Below are positions 1,752-27,470 of a stretch of 64,000 nucleotides of DNA, piece by piece. Source of the stretch: Bombiscardovia nodaiensis (GTDB lineage: Bacteria > Actinomycetota > Actinomycetes > Actinomycetales > Bifidobacteriaceae); assembly GCA_033127725.1 (NCBI GenBank), contig AP026798.1:682001-746000 (forward strand), in the 5' to 3' direction. The notes under the pieces are model-generated. The model saw only the letters and a program-made list of their open reading frames with translations, did not search any database and had not been told where the DNA came from. The translations under genes were made by a program, and so were the position numbers. Positions within the stretch are counted from its first letter, which is position 1. Each line of letters begins with the position of its first letter.

Positions 1752-2702
1752 ATGAGTACTTATCAGAATGTGCCCACCGGCACTGAGCCGGCAACAATCG
1801 CCGTTGCTCCAAATGCTGCTGCGGCTGTCTCTATTCGTGGTCTCTACAAGCGTTTTGACGCTAAAGTGGCTGTCAATGGTCTCTCGCTCGACATTCCGGT
1901 CGGTTCCTTCTATGGTCTGGTCGGTCCCAACGGAGCGGGCAAGACTACGACTTTAAATATGGCGACTGGCCTGTTGGTGCCCGATGCCGGCAGTGTGATG
2001 ATTCTGGGCCACGACGTGTGGTCTGATGTCAACCTGGCCAAGCGGACTATCGGTGTCATGCCACAGGCCAACCAGATTTTTGACCGTTTAACCGGCCTTC
2101 AACTCCTGGTGTACTCGGGGATGCTGCGTGGCATGAAGCGGGCGGAGGCTATGGGAAGAGCCAAGGACCTGCTCTCGGCCTTTGACCTGATGGATGCGGC
2201 CGACCGCATGGTGAGCGACTACTCAGCGGGTATGAACAAAAAGATTTGCCTGGCATCTGCCATGATTCACTCACCCCGCCTGCTGGTGCTCGACGAACCG
2301 TTTGAGTCGGTAGACCCTGTTTCTTCGGCCAATTTGAAGGATATTCTGGCCGAGTATGTCTCCACGGGCGGCACGGTGATTGTCTCCTCGCATGTGATGG
2401 CTCTGGTAGAGAAGATGTGTACGCATGTGGCTGTTATCAACGCTGGACAAGTTCGTGCAGACGGCACTATAGCTCAGGTGGCCAATGGCGAGGATCTTGA
2501 GGACCGCTTCTTGGATTTGGTTGGAGGTCGGCACGCTGCTGCCCAAATCAGCTGGCTCAACGGCGGCGGACAAGAGCAAGAGCAAGCGCCAGAGAGCCAG
2601 ATGCCTGCGGCTTCCTCAACCCCGTCGGCTCAAGCCTATCCGCAGCCCACTGCACCTGACTTCCCAGTCTCGGGTCAAAGCCCAGAATCGGGTGCGCGAT
2701 GA
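1752..2702 (+). CDS. ABC transporter ATP-binding protein (ABC-2 type exporter)
   Basis: This 316-residue cytoplasmic ATPase powers the permease encoded immediately downstream. Visible motifs are Walker A (GPNGAGKTTT, about residue 60), a modified signature around SAGMNKK where the usual LSGGQ would be, Walker B with LLVLDEPFESVDP, and the switch His in IVSSHVM. The last 50 residues or so form a Gln/Pro/Ala-rich tail without a known domain. I start it at ATG 1752 rather than the in-frame start at 1698: the earlier start would add 18 residues with no family resemblance, and a -10-like box sits 6 bases before 1752. The stop overlaps the permease start (ATGA). It belongs to the DrrA/CcmA-like exporter class; the substrate (drug, lipid or bacteriocin) is unknown. 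Confidence 0.85.
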   Translation: MSTYQNVPTGTEPATIAVAPNAAAAVSIRGLYKRFDAKVAVNGLSLDIPVGSFYGLVGPNGAGKTTTLNMATGLLVPDAGSVMILGHDVWSDVNLAKRTIGVMPQANQIFDRLTGLQLLVYSGMLRGMKRAEAMGRAKDLLSAFDLMDAADRMVSDYSAGMNKKICLASAMIHSPRLLVLDEPFESVDPVSSANLKDILAEYVSTGGTVIVSSHVMALVEKMCTHVAVINAGQVRADGTIAQVANGEDLEDRFLDLVGGRHAAAQISWLNGGGQEQEQAPESQMPAASSTPSAQAYPQPTAPDFPVSGQSPESGAR

Positions 2703-4321
2703 GCGAAGTACTGACTATCGTCCGCCTGCGGTGGGCGCTGACCTGGGCCACGATGAAAAAGTCATCCTGGCAGACTGTTGGCTTTATTATCAGCCTGATT
2801 CTGGTTCTAGGGGCTGTGGTGAGCGCTTGGAGCGCGTCTTGGAACTTGGGGCCGCAGCTTGCTGCCGATGGTGCAACGCTCGAAGTGGCTCGTGCCATCT
2901 TGCTGGATGCCATGAGTGCTTTGACGGTATTTATTGTGATCATCCAACTCATGGTGATTGGTGAAGGTTCGACGCTCAATCCGCAGCGCTTCGCCCTCTT
3001 CGGCATTCCCGACCGCAAACTCCAGGCTGGCCTTTTGTGCGCCGGTCTAGTGGGGCTGCCCGCCATCTGCGGATTCCTGTGCTTTGCCTCTCTAGCTGCC
3101 CTCTACAGGGGCTTAGGGCCGGTGATGGTGCTGACGGCTGTCATTTCGGCCCTGATTGCCGTGGTGACCATGATGAGCATATCGAAAATGGTGCTCTCGC
3201 TGGCCACAACCTTGGCGAATTCCCAGCGGGCACAGAACGTTCTCTACCTGGTGGTGTTCTTGCTCTTTCTTTCGATGTGCTACGCGCCCCAGATCATTGC
3301 GCCCTCCGGTCCCAGCGGTCACCTTGAGTTCGCGCAGATTGAACCCCTGGCAGAAATCCTCTCCTTCACTCCGCTGGCGGCGGCCTTCCAGCTGCCCTTT
3401 GACTTGGCCACCGGCGCTTGGCTGTTCGCCCTGCTCCGGCTGGTGATCCTGGGACTTACCTGCTGGTTGTGCTTCGCGGTGTCTACCTGGTGCTTGCGCC
3501 ATGCCCGCCTGAGTGTTGGCCACACGGCTGCGCAGGTCAAGGCGCACGGCCTGGGCATCTTTACCCGGATGCCGGACTCACCCTCAGGGGCTGTGTCAGC
3601 GCGCATGGCTATTTACCTGCGCCGGGACCCCCGCCAGCTGCTCTACTTCCTCCTGCCGATCATTTTCCTGATTGTCTTTAGCTTCCAGGCGGGTCAAATG
3701 CCTGAAATGGTCTGGGTGGCAGTCTATATGGGCGCTGTGATGCTGAGCATGTTTTTCGCCAACGATTTGGCGTACGACGGCCCTGGCATCCACATGCAAG
3801 TCATGGCAGGTCTGCCCGGTAAGGAAGACAGGCGGGGGCGCGTCCGGCTCTACTTGCTGGTCACGTCCGTGTACTTCATCCTTGAGTGCATCATTGCTAC
3901 CTTCATCTCCGGATACTGGCACGATGCGAATCACTTGATTGACGCTCTGGTCATTACCTGCACGGTCGGGGGCGTGCTCATGGCGGGCATTGGGCTGGCT
4001 CAGGTGCTCTCCTGCCTGCTGATTTATCCGGTGGCCTCTATCGACAAGCCCTTCTCCTCGCCCCAGGGCCGACCGGTAACACAAGGTCTCTTCCCCTTCG
4101 TGCAGATGTTGGGCAACATTTTCGCTATGCTCCCAACGCTGATTGCCTGGTTCATCCTGGTCATCAACGTTCCCGACAGTCCGCTCATGTGGCTGCTAGC
4201 GCCCATAGCCCTCGTCAATGGCGCTCTGGTGCTGCTAGGAGGCCTCAACTGGGGCGGCAAGCTCCTTGACCAGCGTCAGTTAAAGATTGTCAGTACCCTC
4301 GACCGGTACGCTTCCTTGTGA
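2699..4321 (+). CDS. ABC-2 type transporter permease
   Basis: This 540-residue integral membrane protein has about twelve hydrophobic segments in two halves. The halves are separated by a more polar stretch around residues 265-300, which suggests two fused six-helix ABC-2 permease units. It starts with ATG 2699, overlapping the stop of the ATPase gene by 4 bases, so the pair is one operon. With the ATPase it should form an exporter. Nothing in the sequence indicates the substrate. The C-terminal end is short and charged. Confidence is high for a permease partner and low for any specific role. Confidence 0.8.
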   Translation: MSEVLTIVRLRWALTWATMKKSSWQTVGFIISLILVLGAVVSAWSASWNLGPQLAADGATLEVARAILLDAMSALTVFIVIIQLMVIGEGSTLNPQRFALFGIPDRKLQAGLLCAGLVGLPAICGFLCFASLAALYRGLGPVMVLTAVISALIAVVTMMSISKMVLSLATTLANSQRAQNVLYLVVFLLFLSMCYAPQIIAPSGPSGHLEFAQIEPLAEILSFTPLAAAFQLPFDLATGAWLFALLRLVILGLTCWLCFAVSTWCLRHARLSVGHTAAQVKAHGLGIFTRMPDSPSGAVSARMAIYLRRDPRQLLYFLLPIIFLIVFSFQAGQMPEMVWVAVYMGAVMLSMFFANDLAYDGPGIHMQVMAGLPGKEDRRGRVRLYLLVTSVYFILECIIATFISGYWHDANHLIDALVITCTVGGVLMAGIGLAQVLSCLLIYPVASIDKPFSSPQGRPVTQGLFPFVQMLGNIFAMLPTLIAWFILVINVPDSPLMWLLAPIALVNGALVLLGGLNWGGKLLDQRQLKIVSTLDRYASL

Positions 4322-19754: not shown

Positions 19755-20323
19755 GGGTTGTGGCCATGTCCGTAGCCGCGAATGTGCCTGCCTAGGGATT
19801 GTTGTCTGGCAATTAGTTTCCTGCTTTTCTGCTCGCTTTTTCTTTAGGGCGCGGAAGTTGGAAGTTGTGCGTTTCCTGTTTCCTGGAAGCTGTGAGCTGC
19901 CGGGAATTACCTGTTTCCAGTCCTGCTCTGCCTTGTTTCGGTCTGTTCCATTCCGTTCGTTGACATGTTGAGCAACGGAAGCTGATGGCCTGGTATAGAT
20001 TCGTTTGTTTAGTTGGCACTGGCGGTTGTGTGTTTCTTATTTCTTGGGAGCGCGGGAGTGGCGGGAAGTTCCTATTTCCGGGCTTGTCTTGTTTTGTTTG
20101 GCTTGTCGGCGGTAGAAGTTGATGACCTGGTATAGCTTTGCCTTCTTGGAAGTTGGGGCGGACAGAATACGCTCGTCAGCGTGATTACGTTTATGTGTGT
20201 TGCGGGGGAGGGTAGACATATTGCAAGGGCTCGGGAGCTGTGTATTTGGCATCCTTCTTATAGTATTAGACGGTGAAAGTCCTCGGATTGAAGAGGTAGC
20301 TGCAGATAGAGCGGGAGATGAGC
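19755..20323. other. Unusual intergenic region between prfA and prmC
   Basis: About 570 bases with a strong strand bias: the plus strand is rich in T and G and poor in A. It contains an imperfect tandem duplication described separately. The two minus-strand frames here owe their length to the low A content and look non-coding. The region splits two genes that are usually adjacent. Confidence 0.4.
19853..20156 (+). repeat. Imperfect direct repeat, two copies of about 140-165 bases
   Basis: Copy 1 covers about 19853-20016 and copy 2 about 20021-20156. Shared landmarks in the same order are a GTTGTGYGTTTC start, a CGGGAA(T/G)T segment, a CTTGTTT segment, GAAG(C/T)TGATG followed by CCTGGTATAG, and an AGTTGG end. 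Divergence is considerable, so the duplication is old or the copies have been reshaped. No coding role is visible. Confidence 0.45.
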
Positions 20324-21364
20324 ATGGTGGAGTCGGCGGAGTCGGCGGAAGATAGTCGGCGCTCGCAAGCGACTGATATGCCGGTGCAGACCGTGCTCGC
20401 TCAAGCGTCTCAGCTCTTAGCTGCTGCGGGAATTGACACGCCAGACAATGACGCGCGCTTGCTGCTGGCTGAGGCTTGCCAGACCAACCTCCACGAGCTC
20501 GACAAGGCCCTGCTCATGCGGCAGACGCTGGGGGAGCTGGCGGCGGGGAGTATGCCCGCGGGCGAGAGCTTGGTTGAGACTGAGTTGGCAGGTCACCTGG
20601 CGGCTGCGAGTTTTGAAGGCTTCATCGAGCGCAGAGTTCAGCGGGAACCTCTGCAATATATCGTGGGCCACACGCCCTTCCGCTTTCTCGATTTGGCAGT
20701 AGGACCGGGTGTTTTCATTCCCCGGCCTGAGACGGAAAGTGTGGTGCAGGCCGGGCTGGATTGGCTGGCAGGGGAGCAGACAACGAGGGAACGGTTGACA
20801 GGGAAGAGGCATACAGCGGGGAGGCTGGAAGAGCCTCTCGTAGTTGACTTGTGCGCCGGGTCGGGGGCTATTGGCTTAGCGGTGGCAACGGAAGTGTCCA
20901 GAGCCCAGGTGTGGGCCGTTGAAGCCTCTGAGGAGGCGGCAGTTTGGACTCGTCGCAACTACGAACGCTATCGGCCGGATATTGAGGCGCATGGTTCCAA
21001 GTACCACTTAATTTTGGGCGATGCCGCTTCCGCCGCGACTCTTACGGACTTGGACGGACAGGTTGACTTGCTTATCTCGAACCCGCCCTACGTTCCCGAA
21101 TCGCAGGTGCCCACCCAGCCCGAAGTGGCCCAGTGGGACCCGCCTCAGGCCCTCTACGGTGCCTCAGCCGACGGTACAGCCCTCCCGCGTCGCATCATCT
21201 CCCGCGCAGCTTCGCTCTTGCGCCCAGGCGGATGCTTCGTCATGGAGCACGACCCCTCGCAGTCCCAGACCCTACGCGAGTGCGCCCAAGCCGTTGGATT
21301 CAGCCAGTCTTCGACCGGCCAAGATATGACCGGTCGAGACCGCTACCTGTTTGCTATTCGCTAA
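20324..21364 (+). CDS. prmC: Release factor N5-glutamine methyltransferase PrmC
   Basis: PrmC methylates the Gln of the GGQ motif in RF1 and RF2 using S-adenosylmethionine. The 346-residue protein is longer than E. coli PrmC because of an N-terminal extension and an insert near residue 70. It shows the SAM-binding DLCAGSGAIGLA segment near residue 175 and the catalytic NPPY motif (LLISNPPYVPES) near 255. GGGAG at 20313-20317 is well spaced for ATG 20324, whereas ATG 20318 directly abuts it. Normally sua5 and wecA follow; here they lie 22 kb downstream. Confidence 0.92.
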   Translation: MVESAESAEDSRRSQATDMPVQTVLAQASQLLAAAGIDTPDNDARLLLAEACQTNLHELDKALLMRQTLGELAAGSMPAGESLVETELAGHLAAASFEGFIERRVQREPLQYIVGHTPFRFLDLAVGPGVFIPRPETESVVQAGLDWLAGEQTTRERLTGKRHTAGRLEEPLVVDLCAGSGAIGLAVATEVSRAQVWAVEASEEAAVWTRRNYERYRPDIEAHGSKYHLILGDAASAATLTDLDGQVDLLISNPPYVPESQVPTQPEVAQWDPPQALYGASADGTALPRRIISRAASLLRPGGCFVMEHDPSQSQTLRECAQAVGFSQSSTGQDMTGRDRYLFAIR

Positions 21365-22142
21365 TAAGGTCGTCATGGCGTAAGTTCTCCCTGGCAAAGT
21401 AGATTCATCGCTCGCCAAGTTGAGTGGTTATTGACTTCTAGGGCATGACTCTGTGCGCAGGCGAGGCTTTGCTGCAGAGTGTTAAGCTTGCTGTCTTGCA
21501 CATTTAGCTTGTTGGCTTGAGCAGTTCAGTTGCCGACTTCTCGATTTGAATAAGTGTTTGTTGCTGGCACCCTACACGGCGTGTATGTGCAAGAGGCATA
21601 GGCGAAGGAGGATAGTATGCTGCGACGACCATTTCACCTGGATGAGCTATTTCTCTGCTTTCATGAACATTCATAAAAATGCAGAATAAAAATCATATAA
21701 CAATTATGTATACTGCATTTTTTTGCTCAGGATACGCTATAACCAGTGTATTTATGTTGAATAGCTGCTGCATAAATTCAGTATAGATGCAGGTTCAAGC
21801 TTTATGTAGAATACTTATGCGCTAAACGGTTGTTGTTATGCTGTATAAAACGGTATACTATTCAAAAAAATGGATATACTCCGTGTAAACCGCATAAAAA
21901 CAGTGTAAATATAAGCTTAATTCATAAATATATACTGTGCATTTACTGCAATAGAGATATGTGTCATATAAATTGTATAAAAATGGTATAAAGATAATCA
22001 AAATATGTATATATACGGCATATATGTTGGACAAAGGCAGCATACATGCAGTAGGTATGCAGTATATATGCTGAATATATACAGTAGATATACAGCAAGA
22101 TACTCCATGCAGTATAGCTATTCAGATTGACTGCCCTTGTGC
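21365..22142. other. AT-rich intergenic region with a cluster of degenerate GTATA-type repeats
   Basis: The first 240 bases are ordinary spacer. From about 21610 to 22125 the sequence becomes very AT-rich. It contains many short, imperfect copies of a unit like GCAGTATA or its complement TATACTGC, often next to GCATA or TATAAA steps. Examples are TATACTGCAT (about 21710), CTGTATAAAACGGTATAC (about 21841), TATACTGTGCATTTACTGCA (about 21931) and GCAGTATATATGCTGAATAT (about 22060). No gene is visible. It may be a regulator-binding array, a partition or recombination region, or low-complexity drift; see the findings. Confidence 0.5.
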
Positions 22143-22490
22143 TTAGTGCAATTCACGGTATTTGTGGTTATTGCCCTTCGAGGTCTCTACCGGGTACTTC
22201 TGCCGCGTCTTCTCAAGCTTGTTGAGCACGATGGTGTCCATGTTCAGCCCAAGCAGCTGCGCCATCTCAATGCAGTAGGTCAGCACGTCCGCCAGCTCGT
22301 CCGCCACGTGCTCCATGTCCCCATCCCGGGCTTCATCCTCCCACTGAAAGCACTCCAGCAACTCCGCCGCCTCAATAGCAATCGACTTAGCCAAAGTCCC
22401 CGGCGTATGAAACTTCTCCCACTCCCTCTCCCGTGCAAATTTCATTACCGTCTCAACAGTTTTATCGCTTAGCATGTCTTCAGTGTACAT
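22143..22490 (-). CDS. MazG-like nucleotide pyrophosphohydrolase
   Basis: This protein of about 115 residues resembles the short all-alpha NTP pyrophosphohydrolases, which hydrolyse nucleoside triphosphates to monophosphate and pyrophosphate. The metal-binding pattern is clear: ExxE in EAAELLECFQW (near residue 47) and ExxD in ADELADVLTY (near 70). FAREREWEKFHTP near residue 20 also fits this family. I start it at ATG 22490 (MYTEDML); ATG 22475 is an alternative, and neither has a good ribosome site. It is divergent from the GIY-YIG/DUF2075 gene with only about 43 bases between starts, which suggests shared control. Possible roles are housekeeping of modified nucleotides or nucleotide depletion during phage attack. 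Confidence 0.8.
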   Translation of the reverse strand: MYTEDMLSDKTVETVMKFAREREWEKFHTPGTLAKSIAIEAAELLECFQWEDEARDGDMEHVADELADVLTYCIEMAQLLGLNMDTIVLNKLEKTRQKYPVETSKGNNHKYRELH

Positions 22491-22533
22491 GGCAGTTTTA
22501 TGTGACAGATGCAAATAGGTGCATAATGAGTGT

Positions 22534-24771
22534 ATGAGTAAAAGCACAAATCTTTCTTCTGTAATCATTGATCTTCCCTACGCAAGGCACAATCCCAAAG
22601 ACTTTGAAGAAGCAATTGAGAGCGAAGCTAGGAGCATGTCAAGAGACAACGAGAATGTGCTCATGAGCGTCAGTTCAGATAGCACATTTGAACAGCAGCT
22701 TGCACGAAATATTCGTTATATTTTGCACTATCCAACTGTTTATATAGTGCATTACAAGTATCCAGCGAATAAATATAGTAAGAAAAGTCAATATACGGTA
22801 TATGTCGGTGAGACAAACAGTATAACGGACCGTACCCAGCAGCATATTGACAGCGTGCCAGAGAAAAGCGCAGGTTGGCAGAAACTTATCGATTTGGTGC
22901 ATCAAGATTCAATGGATGTTAAACAATATGTAATAGGTCATGAGCATTTTAATAAATCACTCACGCTTGATATAGAAAACAAACTCATGAGTTATTTGCC
23001 AAGTGTGCCGTCCGTAAGTTTGGCGCTGAACAAGCGGAACAATCCACAAGACGACTACTATACGGCTGATGAACTCGACAAGGTCTTTTCGCAAATATGG
23101 GCAGGGCTCCATAAGGAAGATCCTGAACTCTTTCCATCAGAAAGTCTCATACGAGATTCAGCCTTATTCAAAGCCTCTCCTTTTACAAAACTGAATGATG
23201 AGCAAAAGCAGGCAGAGAGCAAGATTATTGAAACAGTCAAAAAAATTATTGGTATCGAAGATGATGAAGACGATCGCGGCAATAGCTTAATTCAGACAAA
23301 TGCGTCATACGTCAAGCAGCCAACGCATAAAAACAACAACAAAGCGGCCAATGATGGTGATCCCACATACGTCATCATTGTCCAAGGTATGGCTGGTACT
23401 GGGAAAACGGTTTTGCTCAGTCATCTCTTCGACTTACTATGCACACAGTTGCATATAGCTGGACCTATAGATTCGACCTCGGACAAGCAACCATATAAGA
23501 ATAGTTCTACAGAAGAGCGTATGAGATCGTACATGATTGTTAATCACGCCGAACAGGAAAATGTATATAACCAAATAGCACTTAAGCTAGGTCTTCAGAA
23601 AAAACAGGGACAGGTAGTTGTAAACGCAACACGTTTTATCAATCGCTTTAGCAATCAAAAGTTAAACAACAAAACAGGAAAGTATAGTGGCCGAGCTTTA
23701 CCTGACGAGCCCAATGGTCGGGCCGATATTGTACTTATAGACGAAGCCCATTTGCTTCGGACCCAGGGTAATCAAGGATATTCTGGCACCAATCAGCTAA
23801 AAGATATTCTGAAAAGAACAAAAATTGCTATTGTAGTTTTCGATCCCGAACAAGTGCTTCATAGCTCACAATACTGGACCCGAGAAGAGCTCGATTTCCT
23901 GCAGCCTTCGCTTACAGACCAGTCAGAAGACAGTGTAGAAAACACGCCCTTTAGAACAGACAGTTTTCATGGGGAAAGTTATCAAGTTGCAAGAATACGT
24001 CTTCATGAACAAATGCGCGTACAAGCAGATGATAAAACTTGCGCTTGGCTGGATGAATTTACCAGTAATGGTACGGTCGCACAACTCGATCTGAAACCTT
24101 CCGCGGATAAGTCGGGAGATTTTGAAGATAGTAAAGGGTTTCACCTTCACGTATTTGAATCACCAAACGAGTTGTATCAAGAGATATTAGAGAAGTCACA
24201 AGAGCGAGGCTCTGGAGCAGAAGGCAAGGGGCTTTCTAGACTCCTCGCTACATATGACTGGGAATATTCTTCAAAGACAAAAAACACCAACGATGCTCAC
24301 GGACGGTGGAATGTTGAACTATGCAAAGATTCGGATGGCAAATGGCACACAGGTTTGGGAAATAGGGCAAAGGGTGCAGTCAATCAAACATTCTCTATGC
24401 CTTGGAACTACGAGCTTTACCCGGAGTATGGGGGAAAGAAAACTGATGCTGAGCGGGGTGCCTGGGCTGAGAGAGACTTTACTATTCATGAAATTGGTTC
24501 GACTTATACAATCCAAGGCTTTGATTTGAACTATGCAGGTGTCATTATCGGCCCGTCAGTTATATACCGTAATGGTAACGTCCAGTTTGACCCCAAAAAC
24601 AGTAAGGACAAGTATGCAGTTCAAGGTCGGCATGATGCAACAGTTGACCCCTGTGAAAATCTCAAACACCAGCTCAACGTCCTTCTCAAGCGAGGAGTTC
24701 ACGGACTTTATCTATTTGCTGTGGACGAGCAATTGCAGCAGAAACTGCTCGAAGTAATAAACGCCTGTTAA
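22534..24771 (+). CDS. GIY-YIG nuclease / DUF2075 ATPase fusion
   Basis: This 745-residue protein has two recognisable modules. Residues about 70-160 carry a GIY-YIG-like nuclease signature: VYIVHYK, then YTVYVGETN near residue 90, an Arg and a His in TDRTQQH, and a Glu in LDIENKLM near 153. From about residue 275 a DUF2075 superfamily 1-type ATPase follows. Its motifs are Walker A GMAGTGKT (near 285), Walker B LIDEAH (near 400), VVFDPEQV, LHEQMR, TIQGFDLNYAG (near 655) and LLKRGVHGLYLFAVD near the end. The gene is clearly more AT-rich and richer in Lys, Asn and Ser than its neighbours, which suggests transfer. ATG 22534 has only a weak ribosome site. It probably acts on nucleic acid; a defence role is inference from architecture and context. 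Confidence 0.75.
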   Translation: MSKSTNLSSVIIDLPYARHNPKDFEEAIESEARSMSRDNENVLMSVSSDSTFEQQLARNIRYILHYPTVYIVHYKYPANKYSKKSQYTVYVGETNSITDRTQQHIDSVPEKSAGWQKLIDLVHQDSMDVKQYVIGHEHFNKSLTLDIENKLMSYLPSVPSVSLALNKRNNPQDDYYTADELDKVFSQIWAGLHKEDPELFPSESLIRDSALFKASPFTKLNDEQKQAESKIIETVKKIIGIEDDEDDRGNSLIQTNASYVKQPTHKNNNKAANDGDPTYVIIVQGMAGTGKTVLLSHLFDLLCTQLHIAGPIDSTSDKQPYKNSSTEERMRSYMIVNHAEQENVYNQIALKLGLQKKQGQVVVNATRFINRFSNQKLNNKTGKYSGRALPDEPNGRADIVLIDEAHLLRTQGNQGYSGTNQLKDILKRTKIAIVVFDPEQVLHSSQYWTREELDFLQPSLTDQSEDSVENTPFRTDSFHGESYQVARIRLHEQMRVQADDKTCAWLDEFTSNGTVAQLDLKPSADKSGDFEDSKGFHLHVFESPNELYQEILEKSQERGSGAEGKGLSRLLATYDWEYSSKTKNTNDAHGRWNVELCKDSDGKWHTGLGNRAKGAVNQTFSMPWNYELYPEYGGKKTDAERGAWAERDFTIHEIGSTYTIQGFDLNYAGVIIGPSVIYRNGNVQFDPKNSKDKYAVQGRHDATVDPCENLKHQLNVLLKRGVHGLYLFAVDEQLQQKLLEVINAC

Positions 24772-25056
24772 TGCTTCTAGAAAATAACAGATAATTTTTG
24801 AACAAGAGGTCTCTTTTATATTAGCTAAGGTTATTTGCCTATTTACCAAAGTTTTCTCATGAGAGCTGGTTTCCGTTATATAGCAGAAACTACTTTTAAT
24901 CATAATAGTGCTTGACAGACGGGCAGAGTGGAATCTTGAACTATGTATGTTTTTGGCACAGTGAAAATGCCATAGAACATGCTCACTGTGACAAAAACAA
25001 GCGGAACTCAATCGGCAGCATAAACGTTGTGACCTGGCGCTAAATCCTCAACCTAG

Positions 25057-25263
25057 TTACATGTTGCTACAAACTGTTCGCAATGTTTCCAATAGGGGTG
25101 GATGTTCAAAGTGTTTATTAGGCTTCCACGTCCGATTCTGCTTGTCCTCTAATCTGCCGAGTCTGGAATCCACAAATCGAGTATGAGTCATGATTAAGTC
25201 GTCGTCATCTGCAGTCCGGTTAGTGACTGTAAGATTTGTTTCAGCGTTTTTATCAATCTTCAA
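25057..25263 (-). pseudogene. Short protein-like remnant, unknown family
   Basis: A minus-strand frame of about 68 residues has good amino-acid composition (KIDKNAETNLTVTNRTADDD, then HTRFVDSRLGRLEDKQNRTW). The same frame continues open upstream into the end of the neighbouring remnant. It could be the C-terminal part of that broken gene in another frame, or the remains of a separate small gene. I do not recognise the family. Confidence 0.3.
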
Positions 25264-25274
25264 CTTTATAGATT

Positions 25275-25805
25275 TTACGACGGTTTGACGGGTTTGCGAT
25301 TGAGGAGGTATGTGGTCTGTTTTTCCTGTATTCTTCCCAAAACTGAAATCTGACTATACCTAGTTGGGTTAAACTCTAGCTGTTTGTTGATCCACAGACG
25401 ACGAGGAACAAGAATTAGTGCTTCACCGGCTGCGTACGGAAGTTGAACGGATTGAGTTCCTCAATCGTGAGAAGAGGCATCCCAAGTTCTAATTGAGGCA
25501 GCTCCAAGTTTGTGGCCGTTTGTTTTGAACTCAGGATATAACTTGACCATATCTTGTGTGAAAGTAATAAGGCTCTCCAGCATTAGCAATAGTGTCATGT
25601 CAGATATGCGGTCATTGCCTATTCCAGGAACGAGAGCTCCCAGTTCTTCAACTTTGCCCAGGTTGCCAGAAATAAGAAGCCGTAAGACTTGACTGCTGAG
25701 CACATTTTAAATCAACTCACCAATGCCAGATGAGAACCCATGACCTCTATAAGAGCTTTTAGTGTATCCTAAACCGTCTTCACTGACTTCAGAAAGCGTT
25801 ATGAG
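25275..25805 (-). pseudogene. Decayed gene, unrecognised family, broken by a stop and two frameshifts
   Basis: Reading the minus strand, one frame gives SEDGLGYTKSSYRGHGFSSG, then GELI, an internal TAA at 25707-25709, and then VLRLLISGNLGKVEELG and LVPGIGNDRISDMT. It continues to a VKLYPEFKTNGHK segment. The sense then shifts to a second frame (LELGMPLLTIEELNPFNFRT) near 25510 and to a third (ALILVPRRLWINKQLEFNP) near 25420, ending at TAA 25275-25277. The three pieces connect smoothly, as expected of one ancestral protein. I associate the GIGxDRISDMT and ILVPRRL patterns with uncharacterised proteins, but cannot name the family. It is likely a lost neighbour of the DUF2075 gene. Confidence 0.5.
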
Positions 25806-26528
25806 GAAACATCAAGAATACTTTTTGGCTATAGACTTTCAAAATTGTCGAAGTCTTGCACGGCGGTTGTGCATTTTCTCAAATAATTACTGTATTTTAA
25901 TACCATTGGTTGATTGGCTTGAGTGGATGGGCGGCCTGTTGACTGTTATAAATTTGTAGTAGACAGCGTAAAAGATTGTGTAAATTTCTGGATGTCTGGG
26001 TACGGACATCTTAGGGCAGATCTCGACTATTGCTACGGTGCAGGTGATTCCTATGAAGTGTTGGACTCTGGTATTTAACCAACATGTTTGGATAACGTTA
26101 AGCACCTGGAGTCACTGGCTCAGGTGATGTGGACTGGAGCTCTTACTCGGCACAAGGATTGTTTGTAAGAGGCTCGACCTCTTCTGTGAAGTATAGATAT
26201 GCCCTGCTCTCCAACAAGAGTAGCAACGTTCCTGAGCTTGTTTTGAGACAGCTTCGTTGTGCGGTTGTGAAAGGAGCCGGCGGCAAGCAAAGCAGAAATA
26301 AAGAAGCGCTAAGGGGTATCAGCGGCTGCTGCTGCTCAAATGGAGTTTTGGGGAGTAGGTGGGCGCGACACGGAGGGACTTATTATTGGGGAAGTGAGTA
26401 TAGTGGATGGTGGTGATTAAAGGTTTTACCATATAGCTCCAAATTTGTAGCTATGAAGCCTGCCGGGGCGCAGAATGCCGAGCCTTTGGCGGACTTGAGA
26501 AATGTAGTACTAAGGAGAGTGAGCCGGA

Positions 26529-27470
26529 ATGGCTAGGAAGATAATACTGGATTCGGACCCGGGGCATGATGACGCTGTTGCCATCCTGTTAGCGGTGGGC
26601 AATCCCAACATTGAATTGCTGGGTGTCACTACTGTGGGCGGCAATCAGAGTCTGGAGAAAGTGACCTATAATGCGCGCGCGGTGCTTCAAGAGGCACATG
26701 CCACTGATATTCCGGTGCACGCGGGCTGCGATCGGCCTCTGGTGCGCAAGCAGGAGGTGGCGGCTGCGATCCATGGTGAGACCGGACTGGACGGCGTGGA
26801 GCTGCCCGAGCCAACCCGTCCGCTCGACCAGGGGCACGCGGTCAACTGGCTGATTGACACGATTATGGCTGCTGAGCCCAAGTCCATCACGCTCGTGCCG
26901 ACCGGCCCCCTGACTAACATCGCCATGGCCGTGCGCATGGAGCCACGCATTGTGGAGCGCGTGAAGGAAGTCGTGCTCATGGGTGGCGGCTACCATGTGG
27001 GCAACTGGTCCGCCGTGGCCGAGTTCAACATCAAGGTGGACCCCGAGGCTGCTCATATCGTCTTCAACGAGCCTTGGCCCGTCACCATGGTGGGCTTGGA
27101 CCTGACCCATCAGGCCCTGTGCACGCCTCAGGTGCAGGCCCGCATCGACGGCCTGGGCACGGACCTGGCCCACTTCGTCTCCGGGCTCATGGACTTCTTC
27201 CGCAAGTCCTACCAGAACAACCAGGACTTCGTGGATCCGCCGGTGCACGACCCCTGCACGGTGGCCTACCTGATTGACCCCAGCGTGGTGCAGACCCGCC
27301 GCTGCCCGGTGGACGTGGAGCTTTCGGGCGACTTGACGCTCGGCATGACCGTCGCCGATTTGCGCGGTCCGGAGCCTTCCGCAGAGGAGTGCCATACCCA
27401 GGTGGCTACCAAGCTGGACTTTGACAAGTTCTGGGATTTAGTGACTGACGCGATTCAAAGGATTGGCTGA
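26529..27470 (+). CDS. Inosine-uridine preferring nucleoside hydrolase
   Basis: This enzyme cleaves the N-glycosidic bond of ribonucleosides to ribose and free base. The 313-residue protein has the calcium-binding N-terminus DSDPGHDDAVA (near residue 7), the active-site region VLMGGGY near 150, and the His in PPVHDPCTV near 240. ATG 26529 is preceded by AAGGAGAGTGAGCCGGA. Composition is GC-rich again, unlike the region before it. The MFS transporter gene starts 3 bases after its stop, so the pair probably imports and degrades nucleosides. The freed hypoxanthine or guanine could feed Hpt. Confidence 0.92.
   Translation: MARKIILDSDPGHDDAVAILLAVGNPNIELLGVTTVGGNQSLEKVTYNARAVLQEAHATDIPVHAGCDRPLVRKQEVAAAIHGETGLDGVELPEPTRPLDQGHAVNWLIDTIMAAEPKSITLVPTGPLTNIAMAVRMEPRIVERVKEVVLMGGGYHVGNWSAVAEFNIKVDPEAAHIVFNEPWPVTMVGLDLTHQALCTPQVQARIDGLGTDLAHFVSGLMDFFRKSYQNNQDFVDPPVHDPCTVAYLIDPSVVQTRRCPVDVELSGDLTLGMTVADLRGPEPSAEECHTQVATKLDFDKFWDLVTDAIQRIG

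Follow-up and report, generated by a model that had tools for sequence, protein, structure and literature searches.

Nucleotide-depleting defence is carried out by enzymes such as dCTP deaminase and dGTPase, which starve the phage of dNTP. Conversely, phage T4 uses a pair formed by a dCTPase and the GIY-YIG nuclease EndoII against host DNA, and the Schlafen-type helicase motor is known from human antiviral proteins. In Staphylococcus, Nhi combines a nuclease and a helicase in a single chain, nicks and unwinds DNA, and depends for its activity on the phage SSB, as described in the available passages of a review in which neither GIY-YIG nor MazG occurs (PMC12904381). Moreover, the passages available from the DefensePredictor study list MazG among predicted, unvalidated defence domains and do not specify which MazG proteins are meant (PMC13092281). 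The terms MazG and GIY-YIG were not found in PMC12839542, PMC3710099, and PMC7159879. Searches of the open-licence full-text literature, taken without preprints, found no description of a pair formed by MazG and a GIY-YIG-helicase, although a description elsewhere is possible, and no match in PADLOC-DB corresponds to it either, in agreement with the earlier note on this DNA, which knew of no characterised system with exactly this pair. The same searches found no title that places DUF2075 in defence, no paper that combines DUF2075 with GIY-YIG or with MazG, and none that joins GIY-YIG to a Schlafen helicase in defence. MazG does occur with defence, and with GIY-YIG and defence, in a few papers; those found for nucleotide pyrophosphohydrolases with GIY-YIG, and for dCTP pyrophosphatase with phage defence, are on phages.

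The Gene Pair and Its Local Context

The window, that is, the whole stretch of 64,000 nucleotides of Bombiscardovia nodaiensis DNA that was analysed, belongs to a genome of 2.29 Mb and contains two intact, divergent genes at 22143-24771 (Table 1). The distance of about 43 bases between two opposite genes given in the earlier note proved to be exactly 43 between the two ATG codons, and it would be 58 bases if the smaller gene started at 22475, the position where its relatives begin. Both genes lie in an AT-rich block of about 5 kb, also described before and located here at approximately 21.0-26.0 kb, with 42-47% GC versus about 58% in the neighbourhood. They are flanked by prmC (20318-21364) on one side and by a nucleoside hydrolase gene (26529-27470) on the other, both names being read from the ORFs. 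The reported break in conserved gene order is real when the intervals at the prmC site of relatives are compared. In contrast, the decayed gene that had been placed in the flank was not recovered, since the ORF at 25461-25703 has no Pfam match, and a comparison of 24772-26528 with the ORFs of a first set of loci revealed no recognisable gene or relative. Scans for promoters and terminators gave no more than in shuffles.

Table 1. Features of the gene pair and adjacent elements, in window positions
Feature	Position	Strand	Remarks
MazG-like NTP pyrophosphohydrolase, DCTPP1-like	22143..22490	-	Start ATG 22490, possibly 22475; mechanical ORF 22143-22568 on -
Divergent intergenic region between both start codons	22491..22533	.	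43 bases, from sequence
GIY-YIG nuclease fused to Schlafen-group-3 SF1 helicase	22534..24771	+	ATG 22534 = 745 aa; GTG 22519 = 750 aa; mechanical ORF 22519-24771 on +
GIY-YIG domain	22711..23043	+	VYI (69-71), YVG (90-92), R100, H104, E148, N166
SLFN-g3 helicase domain	23368..24726	+	
Walker A GMAGTGKT	23386..23409	+	G285, G288, G290, K291 in 81/81 aligned proteins
Walker B / motif II DEAH	23740..23751	+	D403, E404, H406 in 81/81 aligned proteins
AT-rich array, 11-bp period, degenerate GCAGTATATAT units	21660..22135	.	3' of MazG gene

The unusual repeat array is also genuine, its 11-bp period scoring a match of 0.419, whereas the highest value among 500 shuffles was 0.371. It is non-coding, has about 30% GC and a period of about one helical turn, and occurs at a single place in the window genome; when 22 other loci were examined with a rough score, which responds to coding DNA too, it was absent from their two top-scoring periodic stretches. 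The array could be a protein-binding or curved-DNA element. It is part of the AT-rich block and is treated here as a neighbour of the module.

The Nuclease-Helicase

The larger protein, in which the earlier note had seen a GIY-YIG-like nuclease signature joined to superfamily 1-type ATPase motifs, bears out both readings. The helicase part matches PF09848 (Pfam, 4.6e-81), and this profile match over the cut-off, together with the SF1 motifs, places it in the Schlafen-group-3 SF1 helicases. The protein shares 41-61% identity with 119 others (best 120 of 1740 matches); the key SF1 residues are conserved in all 81 aligned proteins and the Gln of motif V in 80 of them. The GIY-YIG residues Y70, Y90, G92, R100, H104, E148, and N166 are likewise present in 80/81, the one exception being a truncated row of the alignment that has a gap there. 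Although Pfam does not call PF01541 in the window protein itself, it does so in 55 of 61 aligned N-terminal domains, and the predicted fold of the N-terminus is closest to the GIY-YIG nucleases I-TevI, T4 EndoII, and UvrC, so that the catalytic residues in the alignment and the predicted fold agree in assigning it to this superfamily.

Both UvrC and UvrD are found among the structural matches of the nuclease-helicase, and a sequence search of the PDB with this protein returned only KaiC P-loop matches (E 0.016-0.096). In PADLOC-DB 2.0.0, it matches Nhi, AbiO, PDC-S14, and PDC-M16A weakly, the Nhi match (8.9e-7, 25.9 bits) being partial, with a best stretch of 59 residues. The window genome also encodes a second PF09848 protein with a different N-terminus (L002:820-2913, at about 1787000 of G000:C1), which is weakly Nhi/AbiO-like (8.5e-10 and 2.7e-9) and alongside which no MazG was found.

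The MazG-Like Pyrophosphohydrolase

The smaller protein, of about 115 residues, matches PF12643 (4.7e-19; 68.9 bits versus a cut-off of 27) and PF03819 (5.1e-6), and it belongs to the all-alpha NTP pyrophosphohydrolases by a profile match over the cut-off and by its ExxE and ExxD ligands. These are the metal motifs of short NTP pyrophosphohydrolases that had been recognised earlier, and the four ligands E40, E43, E65, and D68 (numbered from 22490) are invariant in 63/63 partner proteins, as are W24, W50, Y72, and K91. The closest solved sequence is dCTP pyrophosphatase 1 (2e-16), with an alignment that spans ERxWxxFHxP, ExxE, FQW, ELxDVL, and a C-terminal KYxxL. Some of these eight invariant residues presumably form the dCTP pocket, and the substrate is predicted from sequence to be most likely dCTP or a 5-modified dCTP. 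PADLOC-DB 2.0.0 gave no match for this protein. In one other locus, a MazG-like domain stands at the head of a longer open frame of 382 aa (L057:1342-2490), a possible fusion.

Recurrent Linkage of the Two Families

Recurrent linkage of both families, which had been set beforehand as the test of the proposal, was found, and strongly so. The nuclease-helicase is present in 40 of 151 Bifidobacteriaceae genomes, in 30 of which MazG lies less than 1 kb away, with a divergent orientation in 29 of the 30. On the PF12643 side, this count uses 40 of 47 genomes, seven weak or partial matches (four of them over the cut-off) being left out, and it also leaves out a second, unlinked copy in G138. Across Actinomycetota and Bacillota, where 80 loci were kept out of 268 relatives and MazG was sought with a profile of our own in ORFs of at least 60 aa, the gene was found alongside in 62. 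These linked loci display four arrangements: divergent in 21 (including L101 and L103, which the script had sorted as downstream and which were counted by their coordinates), downstream on the same strand in 30, many of them with an overlap of a few bases, upstream on the same strand in 8, and downstream convergent in 3. Several of the 80 loci come from close species, such as those of the B. asteroides group, and thus represent fewer independent events.

Among 296 Actinomycetota genomes, PF12643 is found over its cut-off in 25 and PF09848 at 1e-15 in 27, and in 13 of these 27 the distance between the two matches is below 1 kb, while four further genomes contain both genes apart from each other. 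The co-occurrence has a P of 3.8e-15 if the relatedness of the genomes is ignored, and a Mantel test (Pearson 0.72, Spearman 0.32, 0/2000 permutations), also uncorrected for species relatedness, carries little weight. Chance adjacency was rejected as an explanation, the MazG-like protein having one match in the window genome and yet being adjacent in these proportions (30/40, 62/80, and 13/27). A conserved third gene was also sought and rejected, the largest other neighbour family (ORFs of at least 80 aa within 4 kb, BLASTP 1e-8) reaching only 9/80 loci, six of them of the B. asteroides group.

Sorted by the N-terminal type of the helicase, MazG adjacency in the 27 genomes is 7/7 with GIY-YIG, 6/13 with a putative PD-(D/E)XK domain, a label given by eye to the ELKQW motif, and 0/7 among the others, two of which are cut off and five unmatched by our own profile, with N-termini not read. 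G201 and G322, missed by the script pattern, were placed by eye in the PD-(D/E)XK class. ELKQW-type PF09848 helicases with an adjacent MazG-like gene occur in L235, L236, L240, L241, L242, and L244. Since two N-terminal types stand beside MazG, what stays constant seems to be the pairing of helicase with MazG, whereas the nuclease half appears to be swappable, being either GIY-YIG or an apparent PD-(D/E)XK.

One Gene Without the Other

MazG is missing beside the nuclease-helicase in 18/80 loci and in 10/40 Bifidobacteriaceae genomes; of the 18 genomes, 11 have a PF12643 match elsewhere (three with internal stops) and 7 have none. Reciprocally, 10 of the 40 counted PF12643 genomes have no linked nuclease-helicase, two of them (G067 and G071) containing one elsewhere. 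In the genus of the window, MazG is intact and the nuclease-helicase absent in G092, at the same prmC site, and in G082, whereas in G072 and G078 the nuclease-helicase is gone and MazG is truncated or frame-broken. The nuclease-helicase itself seems to be disrupted in two genomes, by split frames in G062 and by one stop in G084. Thus, the larger gene tends to go first in this genus. The earlier note had considered that MazG might be a core gene kept at this place in relatives lacking its partner; this possibility fits the intact gene standing alone at the prmC site in G092 and, in truncated form, in G072, but the search of this site in G102 and G015 found no MazG, which rules it out as a core gene at this place. 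Elsewhere, a lone MazG lies between AlbA_2/Schlafen-like and HsdR-like proteins, both labelled by eye (L043:3-1469 and 2278-3225).

Insertion Site, Plasmids, and Prophage

Thirteen stretches were fetched from the genus, and the interval at the prmC site was read in seven relatives, four of which carry known or candidate defence genes. Downstream of prmC and MazG, G092 contains an LmuB-like gene (2.8e-85) and a type ISP RM; G072, PDC-S06 (9e-205) and a MkoA-like helicase (2.6e-46) between prmC and the nucleoside hydrolase gene; G102, a type I RM between the same two genes; and in G070, a type II methylase and a REase adjoin the nucleoside hydrolase gene. LmuB belongs to Lamassu and MkoA to Mokosh. 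The interval is nearly empty in G015 and holds metabolic genes in G082 and G078. On this evidence, the stretch between prmC and the nucleoside hydrolase gene is a hotspot that harbours different defence systems across the genus (L204, L205, L206, and L215). The module keeps its gene order next to the nucleoside hydrolase gene in G039, where prmC is 60 kb away, and thus looks old in the genus.

In the wider flanks, the signal is weaker outside the genus. Among the PADLOC matches listed at 1e-30 (25 of 28 families) for 16 module loci (121 ORFs), there are a type IV REase (two ORFs), PbeA (two), PDC-S06 (one), and type I-C cas genes. Sixteen control regions (125 ORFs), hand-picked and mostly on module-bearing contigs, not drawn at random, gave RTasHel, mad3, GajB, SspA/DndA, PDC-M37B, a GlgB model, and DolB, with one ORF per model; these control matches are probably, in the main, housekeeping look-alikes. 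Many module loci lie among metabolic genes, as read by eye. The expected clustering with defence genes is seen in four of seven relatives at the site of the window, whereas the wider flanks show a modest enrichment.

Relatives of the nuclease-helicase occur on eight plasmid records, all of Lactobacillaceae. In the five plasmid copies that were read, MazG was found adjacent in two and not found beside three, one of the latter having Cas6/Cas10 as neighbours; of the other four, one copy has a nucleotide pyrophosphohydrolase together with a DEAD/DEAH helicase nearby, another has type I RM genes plus an integrase, a third has DUF262 with a restriction endonuclease, and the last has genes for HNH and DNA adenine methylase. 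Moreover, one viral contig contains both genes, with an endolysin gene on one side and an integrase gene on the other, which is a usual cargo place of a prophage; a Fic/DOC-family gene directly follows the module there (L233:8031-8687, PF02661 5.6e-9). Phage records gave two weak matches.

Proposed Function and Rival Explanations

The pair is best read as an undescribed module in which a nuclease-helicase immune protein has a nucleotide-destroying partner, and we lean, with restraint, towards an accessory two-gene anti-phage or anti-plasmid function, with a helicase-nuclease effector and a dCTP-hydrolysing partner. The nuclease-helicase would be the effector, whose Schlafen-group-3 SF1 motor would engage foreign DNA, probably replication intermediates, and whose GIY-YIG head would nick or cut it. 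The DCTPP1-like enzyme would split a deoxynucleotide into its monophosphate and pyrophosphate, dCTP or a 5-modified dCTP being the most likely substrate, and the loss of this dNTP could leave the invader unable to replicate or repair, or deprive it of a shielding modified base. We infer DNA as the target, dCTP as the substrate, the cooperation of both proteins, and protection against phages or plasmids. The defence reading, already put forward in the earlier note, draws on the defence-rich insertion site, the presence of copies on plasmids and in a prophage, and the modest excess of defence genes in the flanks. The recurrent linkage agrees with it, as do the invariant catalytic residues and the lack of another neighbour family that recurs as often. 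Against it stand the limited enrichment of the wider flanks, the many loci amid metabolic genes, the loci, genomes, and plasmid copies where one gene lacks the other, and the disrupted nuclease-helicases of G062 and G084.

The order of gene loss bears on a rather unlikely alternative, namely that MazG is an antitoxin-like safety or control element that hydrolyses a trigger nucleotide of the nuclease-helicase or offsets its damage. The loss of the nuclease-helicase before MazG, kept intact in two genomes and truncated or frame-broken in two others, would suit a dispensable toxin and its leftover protector. Nevertheless, the solo nuclease-helicases, including those of the seven genomes without any PF12643, indicate that this protein is not obligately restrained by MazG. 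The same 18 solo copies, some of them beside CRISPR- or other defence-looking genes (by eye), together with the plasmid copy next to Cas6/Cas10 and the weak Nhi match, are compatible with a Nhi-like single-gene defence in which MazG would be an independent passenger. However, hitch-hiking is hard to reconcile with pairings in 62/80 and 13/27 that span four arrangements and two N-terminal types, and we consider this explanation improbable.

A role outside immunity, which we judge unlikely, would be that of an accessory DNA repair and nucleotide-sanitation pair, where MazG would clear damaged dCTP and the GIY-YIG helicase would process lesions. DCTPP1 is a house-cleaning enzyme, UvrC (for the nuclease) and UvrD (for the motor) appear among the structural matches, and many loci lie amid ordinary metabolic genes, as read by eye; against this stand the patchy presence (40/151 Bifidobacteriaceae), the copies borne by plasmids and by a prophage, and an insertion site common to known defence systems. 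To a more specific form of immunity, directed against cytosine-modified phage DNA, we give little credence: MazG would destroy the modified dCTP pool, and the exchangeable nuclease on its Schlafen-type motor would attack the DNA. This proposal comes from three weak hints, which are the DCTPP1 similarity, the fold matches to T4 EndoII and PD-T4-3, and the T4 precedent.

If the defence module is real, bifidobacteria, lactobacilli, enterococci, Lachnospiraceae, coriobacteria, and other Actinomycetota would share an immune module that joins a nucleotide-destroying enzyme to a nuclease-helicase as one working unit with an exchangeable nuclease. Because the two genes adjoin each other in numerous unrelated bacteria of the gut and of dairy, the pair is a good candidate for an antiviral system not yet described, and it links the Schlafen-type helicase motor to bacterial nucleases. 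Moreover, the pairing provides MazG, a predicted defence domain in the available passages of PMC13092281, with a concrete partner, and the question of its role becomes testable.

Comparison with Known Systems

The nuclease-helicase resembles Nhi in having a nuclease and a helicase in one chain; however, Nhi is described as a single gene, and its profile matches the window protein weakly and partially. PD-T4-3, a GIY-YIG protein from E. coli O157:H7 titled as a 5hmC-specific restriction endonuclease, ranks in the fold comparison below I-TevI, T4 EndoII, and UvrC, and its matched chain has 248 residues and, therefore, no helicase of the size of that of the nuclease-helicase. The helicase domains of human Schlafen 11 and 14 are among the closest known counterparts of the motor. 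Similarly, DCTPP1/RS21-C6 is the closest solved sequence to the MazG-like protein, in an alignment that includes Trp, Glu, and Asp residues as well as KYxxL at the C-terminus, whereas the window enzyme is bacterial, is paired with a nuclease-helicase, and has a predicted dCTP activity. As with dCTP deaminase and dGTPase defence, the module would starve the phage of dNTP, but through a different enzyme coupled to a nuclease-helicase, and it would mirror, on the host side, the dCTPase and GIY-YIG EndoII pair of phage T4.
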